Positions 37,512 to 49,804 of a stretch of DNA of 64,000 nt are shown here, one piece after another (within the stretch, counting starts at the first letter, position 1; each line of letters opens with the position of its first letter). This DNA comes from Chloroflexales bacterium ZM16-3. GTDB taxonomy: Bacteria; Chloroflexota; Chloroflexia; Chloroflexales; Chloroflexaceae. Under the pieces are notes generated by a model. It saw only the letters and a list, made by a program, of their open reading frames with translations, was not told the DNA's origin and searched no databases. The position numbers and the translations under genes are program-made. Location: contig RYFE02000011.1 of assembly GCA_004138175.2 (NCBI GenBank), forward strand, positions 1 to 64,000, written 5' to 3'.

Positions 37512-37540
37512 TTGACGATTCCTAGAGCCTATGGTATGCT
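37512..37540 (+). promoter_or_regulatory. Promoter of the branched-chain amino acid operon
   Basis: TTGACG (37512-37517), 17-base spacer, TATGCT (37535-37540) with an extended TG (TGG before TATGCT). Transcription would start near 37547, 30 bases before the leader peptide. Confidence 0.65.
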
Positions 37541-37576
37541 CTCGAAGGTCGTCAATTGTAAAGGTTGCACATACCG

Positions 37577-37669
37577 ATGGCTTCCCTGTTTGTAAACATC
37601 CTCCTTATTAGTGGTCTGGTACTCCTCCTTATTGGGTGGAGCAAGAACCATTTGGGAGGGGAAGCGTAG
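37577..37669 (+). CDS. Branched-chain amino acid operon leader peptide
   Basis: A 30-codon frame beginning ATG GCT. The peptide starts MASLFVNILLISGLVLLLIG and ends GGEA; 13 of 30 residues are Leu, Ile or Val, with runs at codons 8-11 and 14-19. The run uses CTT and ATT codons, which are uncommon in this GC-rich DNA. Its stop (37667) lies 25 bases before a strong terminator, and ilvD follows. This is the layout of an ilv leader peptide in ribosome-mediated attenuation. A weak AAAGG site lies about 12 bases upstream. The alternative is a small membrane protein of the same composition. Confidence 0.7.
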   Translation: MASLFVNILLISGLVLLLIGWSKNHLGGEA

Positions 37670-37724
37670 CGACCCGGTACAGCAGCGAGACTGAACCTCC
37701 CACGGAAACGCGGGGGGTTTTTTT
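37653..37724 (+). promoter_or_regulatory. Attenuator: intrinsic terminator with competing antiterminator
   Basis: Terminator stem 37694-37704 with 37709-37719 (GAAA loop, one wobble, one mismatch), then seven T (37718-37724). TGGGAGG at 37653-37659, inside the last leader codons, can pair with CCTCCCA at 37696-37702, part of the terminator's left arm. A ribosome stalled at the Ile/Leu/Val codons leaves 37653-37659 free, giving antitermination; one that reaches the stop covers it, giving termination. Confidence 0.65.
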
Positions 37725-37947
37725 CATACGCCGCGAGCCCTGGCGCAGCGCCTCGCGCCTGGGCAAGCCACAGCGCGGTGGGCGGCGGCGCACATCCCCA
37801 CTGTGGGGCATTGTTCGGTCGGCAGCACTTCTCCCCCATCTATGGCGCTCCGGGAAGCTCATAGCAGTTTGTAGGCCGCCAGTGTGGCGGCGCGGACATC
37901 CGACAGGCTGTACCGCCTAGTTTCGCATTGCGTCAAAAGGGTTGGCT
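37725..37947 (+). other. ilv operon leader, part after the attenuator
   Basis: No gene is visible between the attenuator and ilvD. A small hairpin GCCGCCAGTGTGGCGGC lies near 37879. No T-box element was recognised. Confidence 0.4.
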
Positions 37948-39633
<1,686 letters not shown>

Positions 39634-39722: not shown

Positions 39723-41465
39723 ATGTCAGAGACACGTACCGGCGCACAGGTGATGTGCGAGGCCCTTATCCGTGAGGGTGTGGATGTGATGTTCGGCGTC
39801 CCCGGCGGGGCGATCATGCCCTTCTACCACGCGATGTGGGAGTACCGCGAGCAGCTGCGTCACGTGCTCTGCCGCCACGAGCAGGGCGCCGGCCACGCCG
39901 CCGAGGGCTATGCCCGCTCCACCGGCAGGATCGGCGTCTGCATCGGCACCTCTGGCCCCGGCGTGACGAATCTGGTTACGCCGATCGCCGACGCGATGAT
40001 GGACAGCACCCCGCTGCTGGCGATCTGCGGCCAGGTGTCCTCGACGGTGCTGGGCAAGGACGCCTTCCAGGAGACGGACATCACCGGAATCACCATGCCG
40101 ATCACTAAGCATAACTACCTGGTGAAGCGGGCCGAGGATCTGCCCTATGTCTTCAAGGAGGCGATCCACATCGCCACCACCGGCCGCCCCGGCCCGGTGC
40201 TGATCGACATCACCAAGGACGCGATGCAGAAGAGCACCGTGCCCGACTGGGATGTGAAGCTGAACCTGCCCGGCTACAAGCCGAACTACCACGGCAACCG
40301 CAAGCAGATCCGCGAGGCGCTGAAGCTGCTGGCCCACGCCAAGAAGCCGGTGATCATCTCCGGCAACGGCGTGGTCATGTCGGGCGCGAGCGATGAGCTG
40401 CGCATGTTCGCCGAAAAGCTGCGCATCCCGGTGATCACCACCCTCCACGGCATCGGCTCGCTGCCCGAGAGCCACCCGCTGAACATCGGCATGCCCGGCA
40501 TGCACGGCTGGGTTCACGGCAACAAGGCCATCCAGGAGTGCGATGTCCTCTTCAACATCGGCGGCCGCTTCGACGACCGGGTCACTGGCAAGGCCAGCAC
40601 CTTCGCGCCCAACGCCAAGGTGATCCACGTGGACATCGACCCCTCGGAGATCGGCAAGAACGTCAAGGTGGCGGTGCCGATCGTCGGCGACGCGCGCAAT
40701 GTGCTGCTGGCCCTGCTTGAGGAGATGCCCGCCCAGGAGGAGCTGTCTGAGCTGCACGGCAACGCCTCGGACTGGATGGAGCACATCCGCGACCTGCAGG
40801 ACAAGCACCAGGGCAAGCAGCAGTATAAGAACCGCTCCGCCAGCGCGGGCATGACCCTGCCGCCCCACGATGTCTTCGATGCGCTGAACGCCACCCTCGC
40901 CAAGAACGGCAACTACGTGCTGGTGACGGACGTGGGCCAGCATCAGATGTGGGCGGCGCAGCTGCTCGACTTCAACGCCGGCCCACGCACCCATATCACC
41001 TCGGGCGGCGCGGCCACCATGGGCTTCTCGGTGCCCGCCTCCCTCGGCGTGGCCGTGGCCCACCCCGAGAAGACAGTCTGGGTTGTCTGCGGCGACGGCG
41101 GCTTCCAGATGACCAACCAGGAAATGGCGACGATCATCCAGGAGGGCATCAAGAACATCAAGGTGATGATCATCAACAACGGCTACCTGGGCATGGTGCG
41201 CCAGTGGCAGGAGCTGTTCGAGGGCAAGCGCTACAGCGGCACGCCCCTGAGCGGCCCGAATTTTGCTAAGCTGGCTGAGGCGTACTACTGGAAGGGCATC
41301 ACCGTCGAGCGCAGCGCGGATGTGCAGGCCGCCATCGACGAGGCCATGGCCACCGATGGCCCGGTGCTGATCGACTTCCAGGTTGAGCGCGAGGTGAACG
41401 TGTTCCCGATGGTGCCCCAGAACAAGTCAATCGGCGAGATGATCGTCAACGAGTCCGAGGCGTAG
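39723..41465 (+). CDS. ilvB: Acetolactate synthase large subunit
   Basis: A 580-residue ThDP enzyme that joins pyruvate with pyruvate or 2-oxobutyrate, the first common step of valine and isoleucine synthesis. Visible are the catalytic Glu in CRHEQGAGHAAEGYARSTG near residue 47, TSGPGVTNLVTPIADA, an FAD-region RFDDRVTG, and the ThDP motif GDGGFQMTNQEMATIIQ with NNGYLGMVRQWQ. GAGGAGAAGAG precedes the ATG. The small regulatory subunit is encoded 54 bp downstream. Confidence 0.97.
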   Translation: MSETRTGAQVMCEALIREGVDVMFGVPGGAIMPFYHAMWEYREQLRHVLCRHEQGAGHAAEGYARSTGRIGVCIGTSGPGVTNLVTPIADAMMDSTPLLAICGQVSSTVLGKDAFQETDITGITMPITKHNYLVKRAEDLPYVFKEAIHIATTGRPGPVLIDITKDAMQKSTVPDWDVKLNLPGYKPNYHGNRKQIREALKLLAHAKKPVIISGNGVVMSGASDELRMFAEKLRIPVITTLHGIGSLPESHPLNIGMPGMHGWVHGNKAIQECDVLFNIGGRFDDRVTGKASTFAPNAKVIHVDIDPSEIGKNVKVAVPIVGDARNVLLALLEEMPAQEELSELHGNASDWMEHIRDLQDKHQGKQQYKNRSASAGMTLPPHDVFDALNATLAKNGNYVLVTDVGQHQMWAAQLLDFNAGPRTHITSGGAATMGFSVPASLGVAVAHPEKTVWVVCGDGGFQMTNQEMATIIQEGIKNIKVMIINNGYLGMVRQWQELFEGKRYSGTPLSGPNFAKLAEAYYWKGITVERSADVQAAIDEAMATDGPVLIDFQVEREVNVFPMVPQNKSIGEMIVNESEA

Positions 41466-41477
41466 CATCATTGACAT

Positions 41478-41505
41478 GTAGGGGCGCAGCGCGCTGCGCC
41501 CCTAC
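41478..41505. repeat. Palindrome ilvB-ilvN (GTAGGGGCG family)
   Basis: A 28-bp perfect palindrome, GTAGGGGCGCAGCG and its complement. Confidence 0.65.
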
Positions 41506-41519
41506 GGAGAAGAGAGCAT

Positions 41520-42062
41520 ATGCGTAAGCACACAATCGTCGCCCTGGTGCAGGATCGCCCCGGCGTGCTGACCCGCGTGGCTGGCCTGGTGCGCCGGCGG
41601 GGCTATAACATCGAGAGCCTGGCGGTGGGCCACAGCGAGCAGCCGGAGATCAGCCGGTTGACCATCGTCGTCGAGTCGGAGGATGTCGAGCAGGTCACCA
41701 AACAGCTCTACCGGCTGATCGAGGTGATCAAGGTGAGCGATGTCACCTTCGACCCGACGGTGGAGCGCGAGATGGCGGTGGTCAAGGTTCACGCGCCGCC
41801 CTCGACGCGCCACGAGATCATCTCGATGTGCGGCACCTTCGAGGCCAAGATCGTGGATGTGGGCGCCACCACCATGATCATCGAGATGACCGGCACGCCC
41901 TCGAAGGTGGAGAACTTCATCGAGATCGTGCGGCCCTACGGCGTCAAGGAGATGATGCGGACCGGGCGGATCGCTATGGTACGCGGCGCCCGCGGCCATA
42001 ACGCCGGCGAGTATGTCGAGCCGGCGAACAGCAATGGCGCAACCACGCCGAGCATGAACTAG
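41520..42062 (+). CDS. ilvN: Acetolactate synthase small (regulatory) subunit
   Basis: A 180-residue protein with an N-terminal ACT domain (HTIVALVQDRPGVLTRVAGL; RRRGYNIESLAVGHSE) and the C-terminal ALS-SS domain at about 83-160. It normally binds valine and gives feedback inhibition of the large subunit. GGAGAAGAGAG precedes the ATG. The last 15 residues (Asn/Thr-rich) are variable in the family. Confidence 0.96.
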   Translation: MRKHTIVALVQDRPGVLTRVAGLVRRRGYNIESLAVGHSEQPEISRLTIVVESEDVEQVTKQLYRLIEVIKVSDVTFDPTVEREMAVVKVHAPPSTRHEIISMCGTFEAKIVDVGATTMIIEMTGTPSKVENFIEIVRPYGVKEMMRTGRIAMVRGARGHNAGEYVEPANSNGATTPSMN

Positions 42063-42071
42063 TTATATCGT

Positions 42072-42100
42072 GTAGAGACGCCCCGGCGGGGCGTCTCTAC
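42072..42100. repeat. Palindrome ilvN-ilvC
   Basis: Inverted repeat GTAGAGACGCCCC with its complement, 29 bases. Confidence 0.65.
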
Positions 42101-42142
42101 TGCATGTGTGCTTCTTGTGTATCTTTGGAGGAATGAGACATC

Positions 42143-43165
42143 ATGGCGGAGCTTTTCTACGACAAGCAGGCGGACCTTGAGCGGCTGAAGGGTAAGCCGA
42201 TCGCGATCATCGGGTTCGGCAGCCAGGGCCACGCCCACGCCCGCAACCTGGCCGACAGCGGCCTGGATGTGCGGGTCGGCCTCTACGCCGGCTCGAAGAG
42301 CTGGGCGAAGGTGGAGGCCGCCGGCCTCAAGGCGATGACCGTGGCCGATGCGGCTAAAGAGGCCCAGATAGTGATGATCCTGGTGCCCGACACCATGCAG
42401 GCCGAGGTCTATCGCGAGCATATCGCCCAGCATATGACGCCCGGCAAGACGCTGATGTTCGCCCACGGATTCAACATCCGCTTCGGCCAGATCATCCCGC
42501 CCGAGGGCATCGATGTGAGCATGGTTGCGCCGAAGTCGCCCGGCCACCGCGTGCGCGAGGTCTACACCCAGGGCGGCGGCGTGCCGGCCCTGGTGGCCGT
42601 GCAGCAGGACGCCAGCGGCGGCGCGATGGCCGACGCGCTGGCCTACGCCAAGGGTATCGGCAGCACCCGCGCCGGTGTGCTGACAACGACCTTCGCCGAG
42701 GAGACCGAGACCGACCTGTTCGGCGAGCAGGTCGTGCTCTGCGGCGGCGTCTCGGCCCTGGTGAAGGCCGGGTTTGAGACCCTGGTGGACGCGGGCTACC
42801 AGCCCGAGGTGGCCTACTTCGAGTGTATGCACGAGCTGAAGCTGATCGTCGACCTGTTCTACCAGGGCGGCCTGAACTACATGCGCTACTCGGTGAGCGA
42901 CACCGCCGAGTGGGGCGACTACACCGCCGGCCCGAAGATCGTCACCGACGACACGCGCAAGGCCATGAAGCAGATTCTGACCGACATTCAGACCGGCGCC
43001 TTCGCCGAGGACTGGATCGAGGAGAACCACACCGGGCGGGCGCGCTTCAACGCCATGCGCAAGGCCGATGTGGACCACCCGATCGAGCAGATCGGCCTGC
43101 AGCTGCGGCGTATGATGCCGTTCGTCGGCCCGCGCGAGGTAAAGCCGGGCGAGGGCGGAGCCTAG
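42143..43165 (+). CDS. ilvC: Ketol-acid reductoisomerase
   Basis: A 340-residue class I enzyme converting acetolactate or acetohydroxybutyrate to dihydroxy acids. The Rossmann motif is [17 protein letters not shown] (about 25-41). The cofactor loop reads [14 protein letters not shown]; the Ser residues favour NADPH. The C-terminal knotted domain carries the metal and substrate residues in [12 protein letters not shown] and [21 protein letters not shown] precedes the ATG. Confidence 0.97.
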
Positions 43166-43166
43166 T

Positions 43167-43237
43167 GATTGCAGATTGTAGATTGCAGATTGCAGCCTCA
43201 TCTGCAATCTGCAATCTGCAATCTGCAATCTGCAATG
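43167..43237. repeat. GATTGCA heptamer array with inverted copies, ilvC-leuA
   Basis: ATTGCAG/ATTGTAG copies followed by complementary CTGCAAT copies; can fold as a hairpin. Same word as the arrays at 13.2, 22.6 and 30.2 kb. Confidence 0.75.
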
Positions 43238-43256
43238 ATGAAGGAGCGAAGCGACC

Positions 43257-44942
43257 ATGGACGTAGATCACGTACGCATTTTTGACACGACCCTGCGTGA
43301 CGGCGAGCAGGCCCCCGGCTGCACGATGACCCTGGACGAGAAGCTGGAGGTCGCCCGCCAGCTGTCCCGCATGAAGGTTGATATTATTGAGGCTGGGTTC
43401 CCCGCCGCCTCCCCCGGCGACTGGGCCGCCGTCAACACGATCGCCCGCGAGGTTGGTGCCCCCGATGGCCCGACGATTGCGGCGCTGGCCCGGGCCAATA
43501 AGGATGATATCGACAAGGCATGGTCGGCCATCCAGCCCGCCGCCAACCGGCGCATCCACACCTTTATGTCTACCTCGGACATTCATCTGGAGCACCAGTT
43601 CCGCAAGAGCCGTGGCGAGGCGCTGGAGCTGATCGGCGAGATGGTGACGTACGCCTGCTCACTCTGCGATGATGTGGAGTTCTCGCCGATGGACGCCACT
43701 CGCTCCGACCCCGACTTCCTCTTTCAGGCGCTCAAGATCGCCGTTGAGTGCGGCGCAACTACCCTGAACATCCCCGACACGGTGGGCTACTCGACGCCCC
43801 AGGAGTATGGCGAGCTGATCGCCGCCATCCGCGCGAATGTGCCCGGCGCCGATGGCGTGATCATCTCGACCCACTGCCACGATGACCTGGGCGTGGCGGT
43901 GGCCAACTCGCTGGCCGGTGTCTACGGCGGCGCGCGCCAGATCGAGTGTACGATCAACGGGATCGGCGAGCGCGCCGGCAACGCCTCTCTGGAGGAGGTG
44001 GTGATGGCGCTGCACACCCGCGAGGCGTTCTACGGCCTGAAGACGCAGATCGAGACCCGCGAGCTCGCCCGCAGCTCGCGCACGGTGAGCAGCTTCATCG
44101 GCGTGCCCGTGCCCCCGAACAAGGCGATCGTCGGCGCAAACGCCTTCGCCCACGAGTCCGGCATCCACCAGGACGGCGTGCTCAAGAACCGTATGACCTA
44201 CGAGATCATGAGCGCCGAGACGGTGGGCCTCGATGGGAACGCGCTGATCCTGGGCAAGCACTCGGGCCGCCACGCCTTCCGCAACCATGTCGAGGCTCTG
44301 GGCTACACCCTGGACGATGAGGACTTTCAGCACGTCTTCTTGCGCTTCAAGGATCTCTGCGACCGTAAGAAGAAGGTGGACGACCGCGATATTGAGGCGC
44401 TGATCGCTGGCGAGACCCAGCACGCCCCGCATATCTATACGCTGGAGCATGTGCAGTACAGCTCGGGAACGAACATGACCCCCAGCGCCACCGTGCGCCT
44501 GATCGGCCCCGATGGCGATGCCCGCACCGATAGCGCCCACGGCACCGGCCCGGTCGACGCGATCTATAAGGCGATCAACCGGCTGATCAACCGGCCCAAC
44601 GAGCTGATCGAGTTCTCGATCAACGCGATCACCGAGGGGCTGGACGCGGTGGCCGAGGTGACGGTGCGCATCCGCGAGCAGGGCATCTCCTCCAACGGCG
44701 GCAGCGACCCGACGACGATCAACCTGACCGGCAAGCGGGCCGCCCAGCAGATCTTCTCCGGCTACAGCGTCAACACCGACACGATTGTGGCCGCCGCCGA
44801 GGCGTATATGGGCGCGCTGAACAAGATGCTCGCCGTCCGCCAGGAGCGCATGAAGGCCGAGGCCGTGGCCTACGCCGCCGGCTACGCCGAGGACCCCGGC
44901 GCCCTCCCGGTGGATCTCTTCGATGGCGGAAGCGCTGGGTAA
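43257..44942 (+). CDS. leuA: 2-isopropylmalate synthase
   Basis: A 561-residue enzyme condensing acetyl-CoA with 2-oxoisovalerate, the first step specific to leucine. The TIM barrel has FDTTLRDGEQAPGCTM near residue 8, HCHDDLGVAVANSLAGV with the metal His pair near 205, and GNASLEEVVMAL. The C-terminal allosteric domain (about 425-535) contains the usual leucine-binding region, so feedback control is expected. AAGGAGCGAAGCGACC precedes the ATG. Distinguished from the downstream citramalate synthase by the classic LeuA pattern and regulatory domain. Confidence 0.95.
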   Translation: MDVDHVRIFDTTLRDGEQAPGCTMTLDEKLEVARQLSRMKVDIIEAGFPAASPGDWAAVNTIAREVGAPDGPTIAALARANKDDIDKAWSAIQPAANRRIHTFMSTSDIHLEHQFRKSRGEALELIGEMVTYACSLCDDVEFSPMDATRSDPDFLFQALKIAVECGATTLNIPDTVGYSTPQEYGELIAAIRANVPGADGVIISTHCHDDLGVAVANSLAGVYGGARQIECTINGIGERAGNASLEEVVMALHTREAFYGLKTQIETRELARSSRTVSSFIGVPVPPNKAIVGANAFAHESGIHQDGVLKNRMTYEIMSAETVGLDGNALILGKHSGRHAFRNHVEALGYTLDDEDFQHVFLRFKDLCDRKKKVDDRDIEALIAGETQHAPHIYTLEHVQYSSGTNMTPSATVRLIGPDGDARTDSAHGTGPVDAIYKAINRLINRPNELIEFSINAITEGLDAVAEVTVRIREQGISSNGGSDPTTINLTGKRAAQQIFSGYSVNTDTIVAAAEAYMGALNKMLAVRQERMKAEAVAYAAGYAEDPGALPVDLFDGGSAG

Positions 44943-45043
44943 TGTTGAATGTTGAATGTTGAATGTTGAATGCACGCATTCAACATTCAACATTCAGCAT
45001 TCAGCATTCAGCATTCAGCATTCAACATTCAACATTCAACATT
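44941..45043. repeat. TTGAATG heptamer array with inverted copies, leuA-pheA
   Basis: Four or more TTGAATG copies, a short ACGC centre, then about nine ATTCAAC/ATTCAGC copies. The two halves are complementary, so a long hairpin can form. It runs right up to the pheA ATG and leaves no ribosome site. Confidence 0.8.
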
Positions 45044-45868
45044 ATGCAGACTATCGCGTACCTTGGCCCGGCCGGCACCTTCAGCGAGGAGGCGGCGATC
45101 GCCTACGCGGCGGGCGAGGCCAGCTACCTGCCCCTGGCCAGCATCCCGGCGGTGGTGACGGCGATTGAGACCGGGGCTGCCGATGTGGGCGTGCTGCCGA
45201 TCGAGAACCTGCTTGAGGGCAGCGTCACCTTCACCCTCGACCTGCTTGTCCACGAGACGGCCCTCCAGATCGCGGGCGAGATCGTCATCCCCATCCGCCA
45301 GTACCTGGTGGTGGGCGAAGGGCTGCGGCTGCCCGATGTGAAGGTGCTCTACGCCCACCCACAGAGCCTCGGCCAGTGCCGCAGGTTCATCGAGCGCGTG
45401 CTGCCGGGGGTGGCCACCATCGCCTCGCTTTCCAACAGCGCGGCGCCCGCCGAGGCGTTGGCCGACACCCGCCCGGCCGCCGCGATCAGCACCATGCGCG
45501 CCGCCGAGCTGACGGGTGCGACTATCCTGGCCAGCGACATCGCTGACAGCACTGGCAATGTCACCCGCTTTATCGGCATGGCCCGCCAGGACGCGCCGCC
45601 CTCCGGCGATGACAAGACGAGCTTCTGCTTCGCCTTCACCGAGGATCGGGCTGGCACGCTGGTGGACGCGCTGGAGGAGCTGGCCGCCGAGCAGATCAAT
45701 ATGACCAAGCTTGAGTCGCGCCCCTCGCGGGCAGTACTCGGCAAGTATGTCTTTCTGGTAGATATTAACGGCCACCGCGAGGAGGCCCACGTTGCCCGCG
45801 CGCTGGACCGGATCGCCGCCAAGTCCGGCATGTTCAAGGTGTTCGGCAGCTACCCGCGCTGGAAATAG
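45044..45868 (+). CDS. pheA: Prephenate dehydratase
   Basis: A 274-residue monofunctional enzyme of phenylalanine synthesis. The catalytic domain starts TIAYLGPAGTFSEEAA and includes PIENLLEGSV and the conserved NVTRFIGMAR near residue 180. The C-terminal ACT domain has DRAGTLVDAL and LESRPSR, the phenylalanine-binding motifs. The ATG at 45044 starts the normal N-terminus; the frame runs upstream through the heptamer array as meaningless QHSTFNI-type residues. Its place inside an ilv/leu operon is uncommon. Confidence 0.93.
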   Translation: MQTIAYLGPAGTFSEEAAIAYAAGEASYLPLASIPAVVTAIETGAADVGVLPIENLLEGSVTFTLDLLVHETALQIAGEIVIPIRQYLVVGEGLRLPDVKVLYAHPQSLGQCRRFIERVLPGVATIASLSNSAAPAEALADTRPAAAISTMRAAELTGATILASDIADSTGNVTRFIGMARQDAPPSGDDKTSFCFAFTEDRAGTLVDALEELAAEQINMTKLESRPSRAVLGKYVFLVDINGHREEAHVARALDRIAAKSGMFKVFGSYPRWK

Positions 45869-45871
45869 GTT

Positions 45872-45918
45872 TATATTCTCACGATTGCGCGCCCGAGGCG
45901 CGCAATCGTGAGAATATA
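45872..45918. repeat. Intergenic hairpin pheA-cimA
   Basis: A 21-bp perfect stem (45872-45892 with 45898-45918) ending in TATATTCTCACG-type arms; no T run. Confidence 0.65.
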
Positions 45919-45937
45919 TAATCTTTGAGGGCTTACT

Positions 45938-47557
45938 GTGCAGATATTTCTCTACGATACCACTCTCCGCGACGGCACGCAGCGCGAGGGGCTCTCGCTC
46001 TCGGCCGAGGATAAGCTGAAGATCGCCTATCTGCTCGACGAGCTGGGCGTCCATTATATCGAGGGTGGCTGGCCCGGCTCGAACCCCAAGGACGCCGAGT
46101 TCTTTCAGCGCATCCGCGAGACGCCGCTGCGCCAGGCGAAGGTGGCCGCCTTTGGCAGCACCCGCCACGCTGGCGGCTCCTGCGAGGGCGACGCCAATAT
46201 CCGCGCCCTGGTGGACGCGCAGACGCCGGTTGTCACCCTGGTGGGTAAGAGCTCGGTGCTGCACGTCGAGCGGGTGCTTGAGACGACGCTGGAGGAGAAT
46301 CTGGCGATGATCGCCGACAGCGTGGCCTACTTTAAGGCCATGGGCAAGGAGGTGGTCTACGACGCCGAGCACTTCTTCGACGGCTATAAGCTCGACCCGG
46401 CGTATACGCTGCGCACGCTTGAGGCCGCCGCCGGGGCCGGCGCGGATGTGCTGGTGCTCTGCGACACCAACGGCGGCTCGCTGCCGAACGAGGTCTCGAA
46501 CATTGTGCGAGACGTGCGTACGCACGTCTCGCACAATGTTCAAATAGGCATCCACACCCACAACGACGGCGCGCTGGCCGTGGCCAACGCCATGGCGGCC
46601 GTGCAGGAGGGAGCCGCGCAGGTGCAGGGCACGATCAACGGCTACGGCGAGCGCTGCGGGAATATGGACCTTATCCCGCTGATCGCCAACCTCCAGCTGA
46701 AGCTCGGCCACCAGTGCGTGAGCGCCGAGCAGCTGGCTCGCCTGAGCGAACTGGCGCACGTTGTGGCCGCCGTGGCCAACCTCAACCCCGACGCCCACGC
46801 GCCCTATGTGGGCCGCAGCGCCTTCGCCCACAAGGGCGGTATCCACGTCGCGGCGATCGCGAAGGTGGAGCACAGCTACCAGCATATTGACCCGACCCTG
46901 GTGGGCAACCAGAAGCGGGTGGTGGTGAGCGAGCTGTCGGGCCGGGGCAATGTGAAGATGCGCGCCGATGAGCTGGGCCTGGATGTTCACGGCAACGAGC
47001 GGGCCGTGCTCCAGCAGATCAAGGAGCGCGAGAGCAAGGGCTTCCAGTTCGAGGCGGCTGAGGGCAGCTTCGAGATGCTGGTGCGCCGCAACGCCGAAGA
47101 CTACCAGCCGCCCTTTGAGCTGCTCGACTTCACGGTGACGGTCGAGAAGCGCGGCGACCGCGAGATCACCTCGCTGGCCACAGTCAAGGTGCGCGTCGGC
47201 GACGAGCTGATGCACACCGCCGCCGAGGGCGACGGGCCGGTGAACGCGCTGGACGCGGCCATCCGCAAGGCGCTGCTGCCGCACTACCCCGAGCTGGCCG
47301 AGGTGCGCCTGGTGGACTACAAGGTGCGGATCATCGACGAGCATCGCGGCACCGCCGCCACCCCGCGCGTGCTGATCGAGAGCGCGCGCGGCGACGAGCG
47401 CTGGAGCACGATCGGCGCATCGCCGAACATTATCGAGGCCAGCTACCAGGCGCTCTGGGATAGCCTGGAGCTGCCGCTGCTGCGGGCCAGGGAGTCGGGA
47501 GTCGGGAGTCGGGAGTCGGGAGTCGGGAGTCAGGAGTCGGTTGCCGCCCACGCCTAA
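45938..47557 (+). CDS. cimA: (R)-citramalate synthase
   Basis: A 539-residue DRE-TIM enzyme making citramalate from pyruvate and acetyl-CoA, the first step of threonine-independent isoleucine synthesis. LYDTTLRDGTQREGLSLS, the GGWPGSNPKD segment, LCDTNGGSLPNE and IGIHTHNDGALAVAN with the metal histidines fit citramalate synthase rather than LeuA. The C-terminal allosteric domain is about 395-515. The start is GTG at 45938 after GAGGG. A 44-bp perfect palindrome lies in the gene. The last 20 residues (RESGVGSRESGVGS and on) come from a heptamer array. Confidence 0.92.
   Translation: MQIFLYDTTLRDGTQREGLSLSAEDKLKIAYLLDELGVHYIEGGWPGSNPKDAEFFQRIRETPLRQAKVAAFGSTRHAGGSCEGDANIRALVDAQTPVVTLVGKSSVLHVERVLETTLEENLAMIADSVAYFKAMGKEVVYDAEHFFDGYKLDPAYTLRTLEAAAGAGADVLVLCDTNGGSLPNEVSNIVRDVRTHVSHNVQIGIHTHNDGALAVANAMAAVQEGAAQVQGTINGYGERCGNMDLIPLIANLQLKLGHQCVSAEQLARLSELAHVVAAVANLNPDAHAPYVGRSAFAHKGGIHVAAIAKVEHSYQHIDPTLVGNQKRVVVSELSGRGNVKMRADELGLDVHGNERAVLQQIKERESKGFQFEAAEGSFEMLVRRNAEDYQPPFELLDFTVTVEKRGDREITSLATVKVRVGDELMHTAAEGDGPVNALDAAIRKALLPHYPELAEVRLVDYKVRIIDEHRGTAATPRVLIESARGDERWSTIGASPNIIEASYQALWDSLELPLLRARESGVGSRESGVGSQESVAAHA
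46498..46541. repeat. 44-bp perfect palindrome inside cimA
   Basis: Two 22-base arms (left arm GAACATTGTGCGAGACGTGC then GT) are exact complements with no spacer. In frame it encodes NIVRDVRTHVSHNV. Codons in and beside it (CGA, CGT, AAT, GTT, CAA, ATA) are unusual for this GC-rich gene. Confidence 0.9.
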
Positions 47558-47575
47558 GGGAGTCGGGAGTCGGTT
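47490..47575. repeat. GGGAGTC heptamer array across the cimA 3' end
   Basis: About six copies of GGGAGTC/AGGAGTC, in frame with cimA, then one more block after the stop. GGTTGCCGCCCACG occurs twice (47539 and 47572), flanking the second block. Confidence 0.8.
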
Positions 47576-47622
47576 GCCGCCCACGTGTGAAGTGCGGGGC
47601 AGGAGAAACCTCACAGCGGTGT

Positions 47623-47690
47623 CCCCCCTCTCCCGCCGCAGCGGGAGAGGGGGCCAGGGGTGAGGGCCATCCACTCGCTCCAACGCCAAT
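47623..47690. repeat. Interspersed GGGAGAGGGGG element
   Basis: CCCTCTCCCGCCGCAGCGGGAGAGGGGG hairpin followed by GGGGTGAGGGCC and later CCAACGCC. A second copy, with the same order of blocks, lies at 62239-62302 and a partial one near 62335-62373. Confidence 0.65.
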
Positions 47691-47713
47691 CAATTTAGGA
47701 GCATGAGTTTCGT

Positions 47714-49135
47714 ATGTCAACCCCAAAGACCCTCTTCGAGAAGGTGTGGGACGCCCACCAGGTGCGCCCGGAGACGGCGGACACCCCGGCGGTGCTCTAC
47801 ATCGACCTGCACCTCATCCACGAGGTCACGTCGCCGCAGGCGTTCACCGAGATCCGTGAGCGCGGCCTGAAGGTGCGTCGGCCCGACCGCACCCTGGCCA
47901 CGATGGATCACAGTACGCCGACGACGCCGCGCAATGCCCAGGGGATCATCCCGGTGATCGACCCGCAGGCGATCAATCAGCTCGACCAGCTGCGCACCAA
48001 CTGCGCCGAGTTCGGTATCCCGCTCTTCGAGCTGGGCAGCGAGAACCAGGGCATCGTCCATGTGATCGGGCCGGAGCAGGGGGCGACCCAGCCCGGCATG
48101 ACGATCGTCTGCGGCGATAGCCACACCTCCACCCACGGGGCATTCGGCGCGCTGGCCTTCGGCATTGGCACCAGCGAGGTGGGCCATGTGCTGGCCACCC
48201 AGTGTCTGCTCCAGCGCAAGGCGAAGACCTGCGCGGTGCGGGTGGACGGTCGGCTCGGGCCGGGCGTGACCGCGAAGGATATTATCCTGGCGATCATCGC
48301 GAAGTACGGTGTGGGCGGCGGCACCGGCTATGTCTTCGAGTATATGGGCGAGGCGATCCGGGCGCTCTCGATGGACGAGCGCATGACGATCTGCAACATG
48401 AGCATTGAGGGCGGCGCGCGGGCCGGCATGGTCGCCCCCGATGAGACGACCTTTGAGTATGTGGCCGGGCGACACTTCGCCCCTAAGGGCGCCGACTTTG
48501 ATGCCGCCGTGGCCCGCTGGCGCACGCTGCCCAGCGACGAGGGCGCGACCTTCGACCACGAGATGCGCCTGGACGCCGATGAGCTGGTGCCGATGATTAC
48601 CTACGGCACCAACCCCGGCATGGGCATCCCGATCACCGGGACGGTGCCGACCCTGGACGAGATGGGCGACGCCAGCGCGCGCACGGCCCTCGACAAGGCG
48701 CTGGCCTACATGGCCCTGGAGCCCGGCAAGCCGCTGCTCGGCCACCCGATCGATATCGTCTTCATCGGCAGCTGCACCAATGGCCGGCTCAGCGACCTGC
48801 GCCAGGCGGCGGGGATGATCAAGGGCCGCAAGGTGGCCGAGGGCGTGCGCATGATGGTGGTGCCGGGCAGCCAGCAGGTGCGCCAGCAGGCCGAGGCTGA
48901 GGGCCTGGACGAGATCTTCAAGGCCGCCGGGGCCGAGTGGCGCGAGGCGGGCTGCTCGGCCTGCCTGGCGATGAACTCCGACGTGGTGCCGCCTGGGAAG
49001 TACGCGGTCTCCACCAGCAACCGCAACTTTGTGGGCCGACAGGGGCCGGGCTCGCGCAGCCTGCTGGCCAGCCCGCTGACCGCAGCGGCGGCGGCGGTCA
49101 CTGGTGTTGTCACCGATCCGCGAACAATGATGTAA
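47714..49135 (+). CDS. leuC: 3-isopropylmalate dehydratase large subunit
   Basis: A 473-residue aconitase-family subunit. The 4Fe-4S cysteines are in IGSCTNGR near residue 353 and in the C-terminal SACLAMN segment; [23 protein letters not shown] and [31 protein letters not shown] are typical of LeuC. With LeuD it isomerises 2-isopropylmalate; the same pair usually also processes citramalate. TTAGGAGC precedes the ATG. Confidence 0.97.
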
Positions 49136-49141
49136 TGCGCC

Positions 49142-49169
49142 GTAGGGGCGCGACGCGTCGCGCCCCTAC
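49142..49169. repeat. Palindrome leuC-leuD (GTAGGGGCG family)
   Basis: A 28-bp perfect palindrome, GTAGGGGCGCGACG and its complement. Confidence 0.65.
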
Positions 49170-49189
49170 TCGCCGTGATGAGGATACCA

Positions 49190-49804
49190 ATGGACCCAAT
49201 CACAACTATCACCGGCAAGGTGGTCGCTATCCCTACTGAGAATATCGACACGGATCAGATCATCCCGGCTAAATACCTCAAGGTGACGAACAAGGATGGC
49301 CTGGGCGATGGCCTGTTCGAGACCTGGCGCTACAACGCCGACGGCACGCCGAACTCGGACTTTGTGCTGAACAGGCCGGAGTCGGCGGGGGCGACGGTGC
49401 TGGTAGCCGGGAAGAACTTCGGCTCGGGCAGCTCGCGCGAGCACGCGCCCTGGGCGCTACAGGCATACGGCTTCCAGGCGCTGATCTCGCCCTCCTTCGC
49501 CGACATCTTCAAGAGCAACGCGCTCAAGATCGGCCTGCTGCCGATCATCGTGGACGAGGATACCTACTACCAGCTGGTGAGCCTCTGCGAGGAGGAGCCG
49601 CAGACGACGGTGACGGTTGATCTGGCCAGCCAGACGGTGACGCTGCCGGGTGGCCAGCGGGTGAGCTTCCCGATTGACGGCTTCAGCAAGCACTGCCTGC
49701 TCAACGGGGTAGACCAGCTCGGCTTTATTCAGCAGCAGGAGTCCGATATCGCCGCGTTTGAGGCGAGCAATCTGGTGGCGTTGAACACATCACTGAGGGG
49801 CTGA
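49190..49804 (+). CDS. leuD: 3-isopropylmalate dehydratase small subunit
   Basis: A 204-residue swivelling-domain subunit of LeuCD. NIDTDQIIPAKYLK near the N-terminus, GKNFGSGSSREHAPWAL (substrate loop) and IFKSNALKIGLLPI are diagnostic. I chose the ATG at 49190 because TGAGGA is well spaced before it; GTG 49175 and ATG 49178 are alternatives. The last residues (SLRG) and the stop come from a CTGAGGGG tandem repeat. No leuB follows; the operon ends at the terminator. Confidence 0.95.
   Translation: MDPITTITGKVVAIPTENIDTDQIIPAKYLKVTNKDGLGDGLFETWRYNADGTPNSDFVLNRPESAGATVLVAGKNFGSGSSREHAPWALQAYGFQALISPSFADIFKSNALKIGLLPIIVDEDTYYQLVSLCEEEPQTTVTVDLASQTVTLPGGQRVSFPIDGFSKHCLLNGVDQLGFIQQQESDIAAFEASNLVALNTSLRG

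Follow-up and report, generated by a model that had tools for sequence, protein, structure and literature searches.

Evidence for ribosome-mediated transcription attenuation of the ilv-leu operon in Chloroflexales

Organization of the ilv-leu leader

The window, i.e. the whole 64-kb stretch of Chloroflexales DNA analyzed here, contains a branched-chain amino acid operon with the gene order ilvD-ilvB-ilvN-ilvC-leuA-pheA-cimA-leuC-leuD, preceded by a leader region with several distinct features (Table 1). Within this operon pheA, encoding prephenate dehydratase, lies between leuA and cimA (45044-45868), and given this position phenylalanine synthesis may be under branched-chain control. Arrays of 7-bp tandem repeats are located in gaps of the operon and at gene ends (43167-43236, 44941-45043 and 47490-47540), the repeat units being GATTGCA, ATCTGCA, CATTCAA and GGGAGTC.

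Table 1. Features of the ilv-leu leader and operon, with coordinates in the window.
Feature	Position	Strand	Remarks
Promoter	37512-37540	+	TTGACG 37512-37517, 17 nt, TATGCT 37535-37540; TGG precedes the -10 hexamer
Leader ORF, 30 codons	37577-37669	+	ATG 37577, TAG 37667-37669; peptide MASLFVNILLISGLVLLLIGWSKNHLGGEA
Segment 1 (protector)	37580-37605	+	Leader codons; predicted to pair with segment 2 when ribosome-free (full fold, stall model)
Segment 2	37653-37665	+	Adjoins the leader stop codon; partner is segment 3 (antiterminator) or segment 1
Segment 3	37696-37702	+	CCTCCCA; common to antiterminator 2:3 and terminator 3:4
Intrinsic terminator 3:4	37694-37724	+	Seven T at 37718-37724
Second structured RNA element	37729-37810	+	After the terminator; covariance model match 37714-37810, 69.9 bits
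ilvD, first structural gene of the operon	37948-39633	+	TIGR00110, 771 bits
ilvB, ilvN, ilvC, leuA, pheA, cimA, leuC, leuD (remaining operon)	39723-49804	+	
Micro-ORF, between T-run and first gene			Absent from the window; loci L116, L119, L120, L126, L128, L129, L132, L135, L145, L007, L012-L019

A first-pass annotation had described a promoter, a 30-codon leader rich in Leu, Ile and Val, a terminator and a 7-bp alternative pairing upstream of ilvD, and all of these were found where it had placed them. The promoter-like pair of hexamers is weak by itself (9/12), and a score of at least 9/12 is reached in all 61 related leaders versus 8% of shuffles. Ile, Leu and Val make up 13 of the 30 leader residues, forming two runs at the regulatory codons 8-11 and 14-19. 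The window's leader has a weak Shine-Dalgarno site, which counts against attenuation.

The last leader codons hold the sequence TGGGAGG (37653-37659) of segment 2, which is perfectly complementary to segment 3. When the full leader was folded, GGGAG of segment 2 paired with the leader codons CTCCT (37601-37605) in the manner of a classical 1:2 protector, a pairing that also uses GGGAAGC and that the first-pass annotation had not named. In the same fold the terminator was present, corresponding to the classical 1:2 plus 3:4 state. The terminator, AACCTCCC-A-CG-GAAA-CG-C-GGGGGGTT followed by the T-run, begins 24 nt after the leader stop codon and, folded alone, has a free energy of -20.4 kcal/mol. 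It was not found by a consensus terminator scan, probably due to the inner mismatch.

Distribution of the leader and properties of its peptide

The occurrence of such leaders was analyzed with a detector requiring a short ORF in which nine or more of 12 residues are Ile, Leu or Val and, downstream of it, a stable hairpin and a T-run. On both strands of the window the detector returned a single match, the attenuator locus. Of 70 regions lying upstream of ilv genes in the order, 51 were matched, compared with none of 350 dinucleotide shuffles of these regions and none of the 70 reverse strands. The assembly is far beyond chance. Nine of the 19 detector-negative regions are those of a second ilvD type that is unlinked, and that of G045 likewise lies upstream of an unlinked ilvD, the leader of this genome standing before ilvB. 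One further region is a contig ending short upstream, and the remaining eight (seven Roseiflexaceae and L010) contain the leader with a poor T-run.

A covariance model combined with inspection showed that 58 of the 61 genomes of the order carry the attenuator ahead of their first ilv gene. Of the other three, G011 and G059 yielded a match to neither ilvD nor ilvB, and the G027 contig ends within a few hundred bases of ilvB on its upstream side. The covariance model by itself detected a single copy in each of 44 of the 61 genomes, in every case at ilv. Leader, promoter and terminator are conserved together before the first ilv gene; relatives devoid of the leader frame or the terminator, which the first-pass annotation had named as evidence against its proposal, were not observed. 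The leader stands before ilvD in the genus of the window and in Herpetosiphonaceae; where ilvD is located elsewhere in the genome, the leader precedes ilvB. The ilvD of about 47% identity found in other Chloroflexales is unlinked and carries no leader. The view that Roseiflexaceae lack the attenuator was rejected, as poor T-runs had hidden leaders that the covariance model and inspection reveal. The poor T-runs of the Roseiflexaceae terminators themselves count against attenuation.

Similar leaders with a terminator were also present in 10 of 40 regions before ilvD in other orders and classes of Chloroflexota. Outside the order, a scan of named genomes, which returned no Chloroflexales, yielded similar leaders before ilvD in 7 of 79 cases, from Gemmatimonadetes, Desulfobacterales and a few other groups. 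An Ile/Leu/Val-rich leader ORF with a terminator was observed before ilvD at L034 and L035 (Gemmatimonadetes), L104, L111 and L112 (Desulfobacterales) and L042 (Anaerolineae), L034 apparently having two successive terminator-like hairpins.

The codon usage of the leader is distinctive. Both Val codons are GTA, which accounts for 2% of Val codons nearby, and the leader codons CTT and ATT are likewise uncommon in neighbouring genes. In an alignment of 20 leaders, codons 15-18 (GTA CTC CTC CTT) are nearly invariant at all three positions. This choice and conservation of codons is in line with a role as regulatory codons or with a need to pair with segment 2, two explanations that are inseparable here; the role of regulatory-codon choice has been discussed previously (PMC1183508). 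The pN/pS ratio of the leader within the genus (0.19-0.81) is not very low, which counts against attenuation. It is below 1, and a hydrophobic peptide of 30 residues could span the membrane, so that the ORF might alternatively encode a functional small membrane protein, with the terminator merely ending or tuning its own transcript. We regard this as very improbable. In the leader cores, 84% of hydrophobic residues are Ile, Leu or Val, while Ala, Phe and Met are few, and codons 15-18 are conserved including their third positions while the C-terminal residues vary. Moreover, the end of the ORF falls at segment 2 in every family, and the leader lies immediately ahead of the first ilv gene and was found nowhere else. 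In the regions searched of the same genomes, no convincing trp or his leader peptides were found.

The terminator might also be controlled by a T-box sensing tRNA aminoacylation or by a metabolite riboswitch, the ORF being incidental. T-boxes do occur in 56 of the 61 genomes, including one upstream of trpE in Chloroflexus, and five matches were obtained in the window's own genome. The first-pass annotation had stated that T-boxes are not seen here, which holds for the ilv locus but not for these genomes elsewhere. The T-box model (RF00230) had no match in the window or in the scanned ilv leaders of relatives, and no Rfam family, including the amino-acid leaders and ilv motifs, was found in the window, a permissive threshold giving chance-level matches only in the leader region. 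The ORF is conserved and only about 25 nt separate its stop codon from the terminator, and we regard control by a T-box or riboswitch as very improbable. Under ribosome-mediated attenuation, two sensors of tRNA charging, the leader attenuator and the T-boxes, would coexist in one genome. This offers a direct way to ask why a given pathway keeps one particular sensing system.

Alternative pairings and the position of the ribosome

Attenuation by a translating ribosome requires that the helices 2:3 and 3:4 compete. The terminator is conserved and covarying, and the 2:3 helix is mutually exclusive with 3:4. Pairing between segment 2 and its own segment 3 gave a mean score of 21.5, compared with 16.2 (sd 0.57) when the segments were permuted across genomes (p = 5e-5). 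Examples of segment 2/segment 3 pairs are TGGGAGGGGCT/AGCCCCTCCCA, TGCGGAAGG/CCTTCCGCA, GCCTGGGAG/CTCCCAGGC and GTTTGAGGCGGC/GCCGCCTCAAAC. As segment 3 also has to pair with segment 4, three segments change together. This cross-pairing test was used because shuffling segment 2 locus by locus has little power for helices of only 6 bp (p about 0.3). Control by polarity, in which leader translation blocks Rho or allows reinitiation at ilvD while the hairpin plays a secondary part, could draw on the long untranslated stretch of some 280 nt between the leader stop and the ilvD start and on the weak T-runs of Roseiflexaceae, but it needs no Ile/Leu/Val-specific composition and leaves a conserved, covarying intrinsic terminator with a mutually exclusive 2:3 helix unaccounted for, and we therefore give it hardly any weight.

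To model attenuation at the locus, a ribosome was placed on the leader codon by codon, using transcripts that stopped short of segment 4. In the window, 2:3 formed with the A-site at codons 5-22 and was lost from codon 23 to the stop; with no ribosome, 1:2 formed instead. The folding with segment masking that had been suggested earlier thus makes the 2:3 helix dependent on ribosome position, and the computed range agrees with the earlier proposal that a ribosome at codons 8-19 exposes segment 2 and one near the stop covers it. The same pattern, 2:3 forming only while the ribosome is in the Ile/Leu/Val run, was computed for 26 of 30 loci. Several results count against attenuation: the model failed to give the pattern throughout the run in the other four loci, it predicts 2:3 even without a ribosome for Herpetosiphon and some further cases, and for the full transcript at equilibrium the terminator wins at every ribosome position. 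Owing to the latter, 2:3 must act by forming first.

Given these data, it is very likely that the operon extending from ilvD to leuD is controlled by a classical ribosome-mediated transcription attenuator at 37512-37724. RNA polymerase would start near 37547 and a ribosome would start translating the leader. With too little charged tRNA for Leu, Ile or Val, this ribosome would stall within codons 6-19 and cover segment 1, so that the part of segment 2 complementary to segment 3 would stay free. It would then pair with segment 3 before segment 4 exists; no terminator would form and the operon would be transcribed. With the ribosome at the leader stop, the terminator helix 3:4 would prevail. Without translation 1:2 would form, leading to termination too. 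We infer the transcription start, the actual stalling, the kinetic trapping of 2:3 and the response to all three amino acids. The logic of the Escherichia coli system, which the first-pass annotation had carried over to this ilv-leu operon, is supported by both the stall-model folding and the conservation.

In the ilvGMEDA and leuABCD attenuators of E. coli and Salmonella, an Ile/Leu/Val-rich leader peptide is combined with a protector/antiterminator/terminator logic. The Chloroflexales leader is like these in composition, logic and pathway. It differs in that no sequence relation was seen, the phylum is another, the operon starts with ilvD or ilvB, and segment 2 sits in the last leader codons adjoining the stop. 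Attenuation of this kind is already known, and the leader that would exert it here is conserved across a whole order of Chloroflexota. The mechanism in this lineage is apparently undescribed; no prior reports from Chloroflexota were found in the literature searched.

Another ilv-leu operon that begins with ilvD is that of Staphylococcus aureus, which likewise has an Ile/Leu-rich leader and a terminator. In S. aureus a peptide of 26 residues is followed by a terminator about 52 nt after the stop, and the leucine-rich attenuator peptide was tested by mutants and reporters (PMC5794164). The antiterminator proposed for S. aureus base-pairs with the poly-U tail without disrupting the terminator stem, whereas that of Chloroflexales takes the 5' arm of the terminator; in addition, S. 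aureus employs CodY as a further control (PMC5794164). Branched-chain-codon-rich ORFs before ilvB are also known from actinobacterial leaders (PMC1262725) and from the ilvB-II, ilvB-OMG and Leptospira ilvB uORF motifs (PMC10272879), ilvB-II sharing with the Chloroflexales leader the combination of terminator and antiterminator with a leader ORF (PMC11109978). The Chloroflexales leader belongs to a different lineage from these and has no Rfam match. At ilvB of Streptomyces coelicolor, which has similar-looking leader peptides, codon changes were without effect and classical attenuation is not obeyed (PMC1262725). Hence, resemblance alone does not prove attenuation.

A second RNA element downstream of the terminator

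The leader region extends beyond the terminator and includes a second conserved RNA element, which refines the earlier description and is the most original part of these findings. Its stem P1 (CGCCGC 37729-37734 with GCGGCG 37785-37790) encloses two hairpins, GCGCA..GCC..CGCGC and CYCACA..CG..GTGRG, in a three-way junction, and P1 is followed by a further hairpin (CCCCA 37796-37800 with TGGGG 37804-37808). In 24 sequences, 92.4% of the cells were paired and 15 of 21 pairs had changed on both sides, as counted in an alignment fitted to the model; MAFFT alignments show the same stems. None of 500 shuffles reached the observed level of pairing, and slid structures reached 24-47%. The single-sequence fold of the window's own copy differs from the consensus and is not unusually stable (z -0.65), so that the evidence for the element comes entirely from covariation. 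No Rfam match was obtained for it. The element is present in 18 of the 61 genomes, all from the family of the window (Chloroflexaceae), as one copy per genome and only at ilv. A genome-wide repeat was considered and rejected on account of this single copy.

In many Chloroflexaceae and in Herpetosiphonaceae a conserved micro-ORF of 31-42 codons begins 26-45 nt after the T-run. Its product has an amphipathic N-terminus, the motif LVPVPV and an Arg-rich end (PVPV-RRRR), and strong matches to its profile were found only at ilv. Where the second element is present, the micro-ORF stops shortly before it; the window itself contains no micro-ORF between terminator and element. It is conceivable, though we hold this tentatively, that regulation by the ilv leader proceeds in two stages in Chloroflexaceae, with the attenuator followed by the second RNA, in many relatives together with the micro-ORF, which would act on the same operon as a separate sensor or an arrest-peptide switch. 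Both the RNA element and the micro-ORF are concrete new targets. Three members of the window's genus are devoid of the second element, and in two of them, G001 and G005, a 7-bp array (GATTGTG) resembling those of the window's operon stands in its place.
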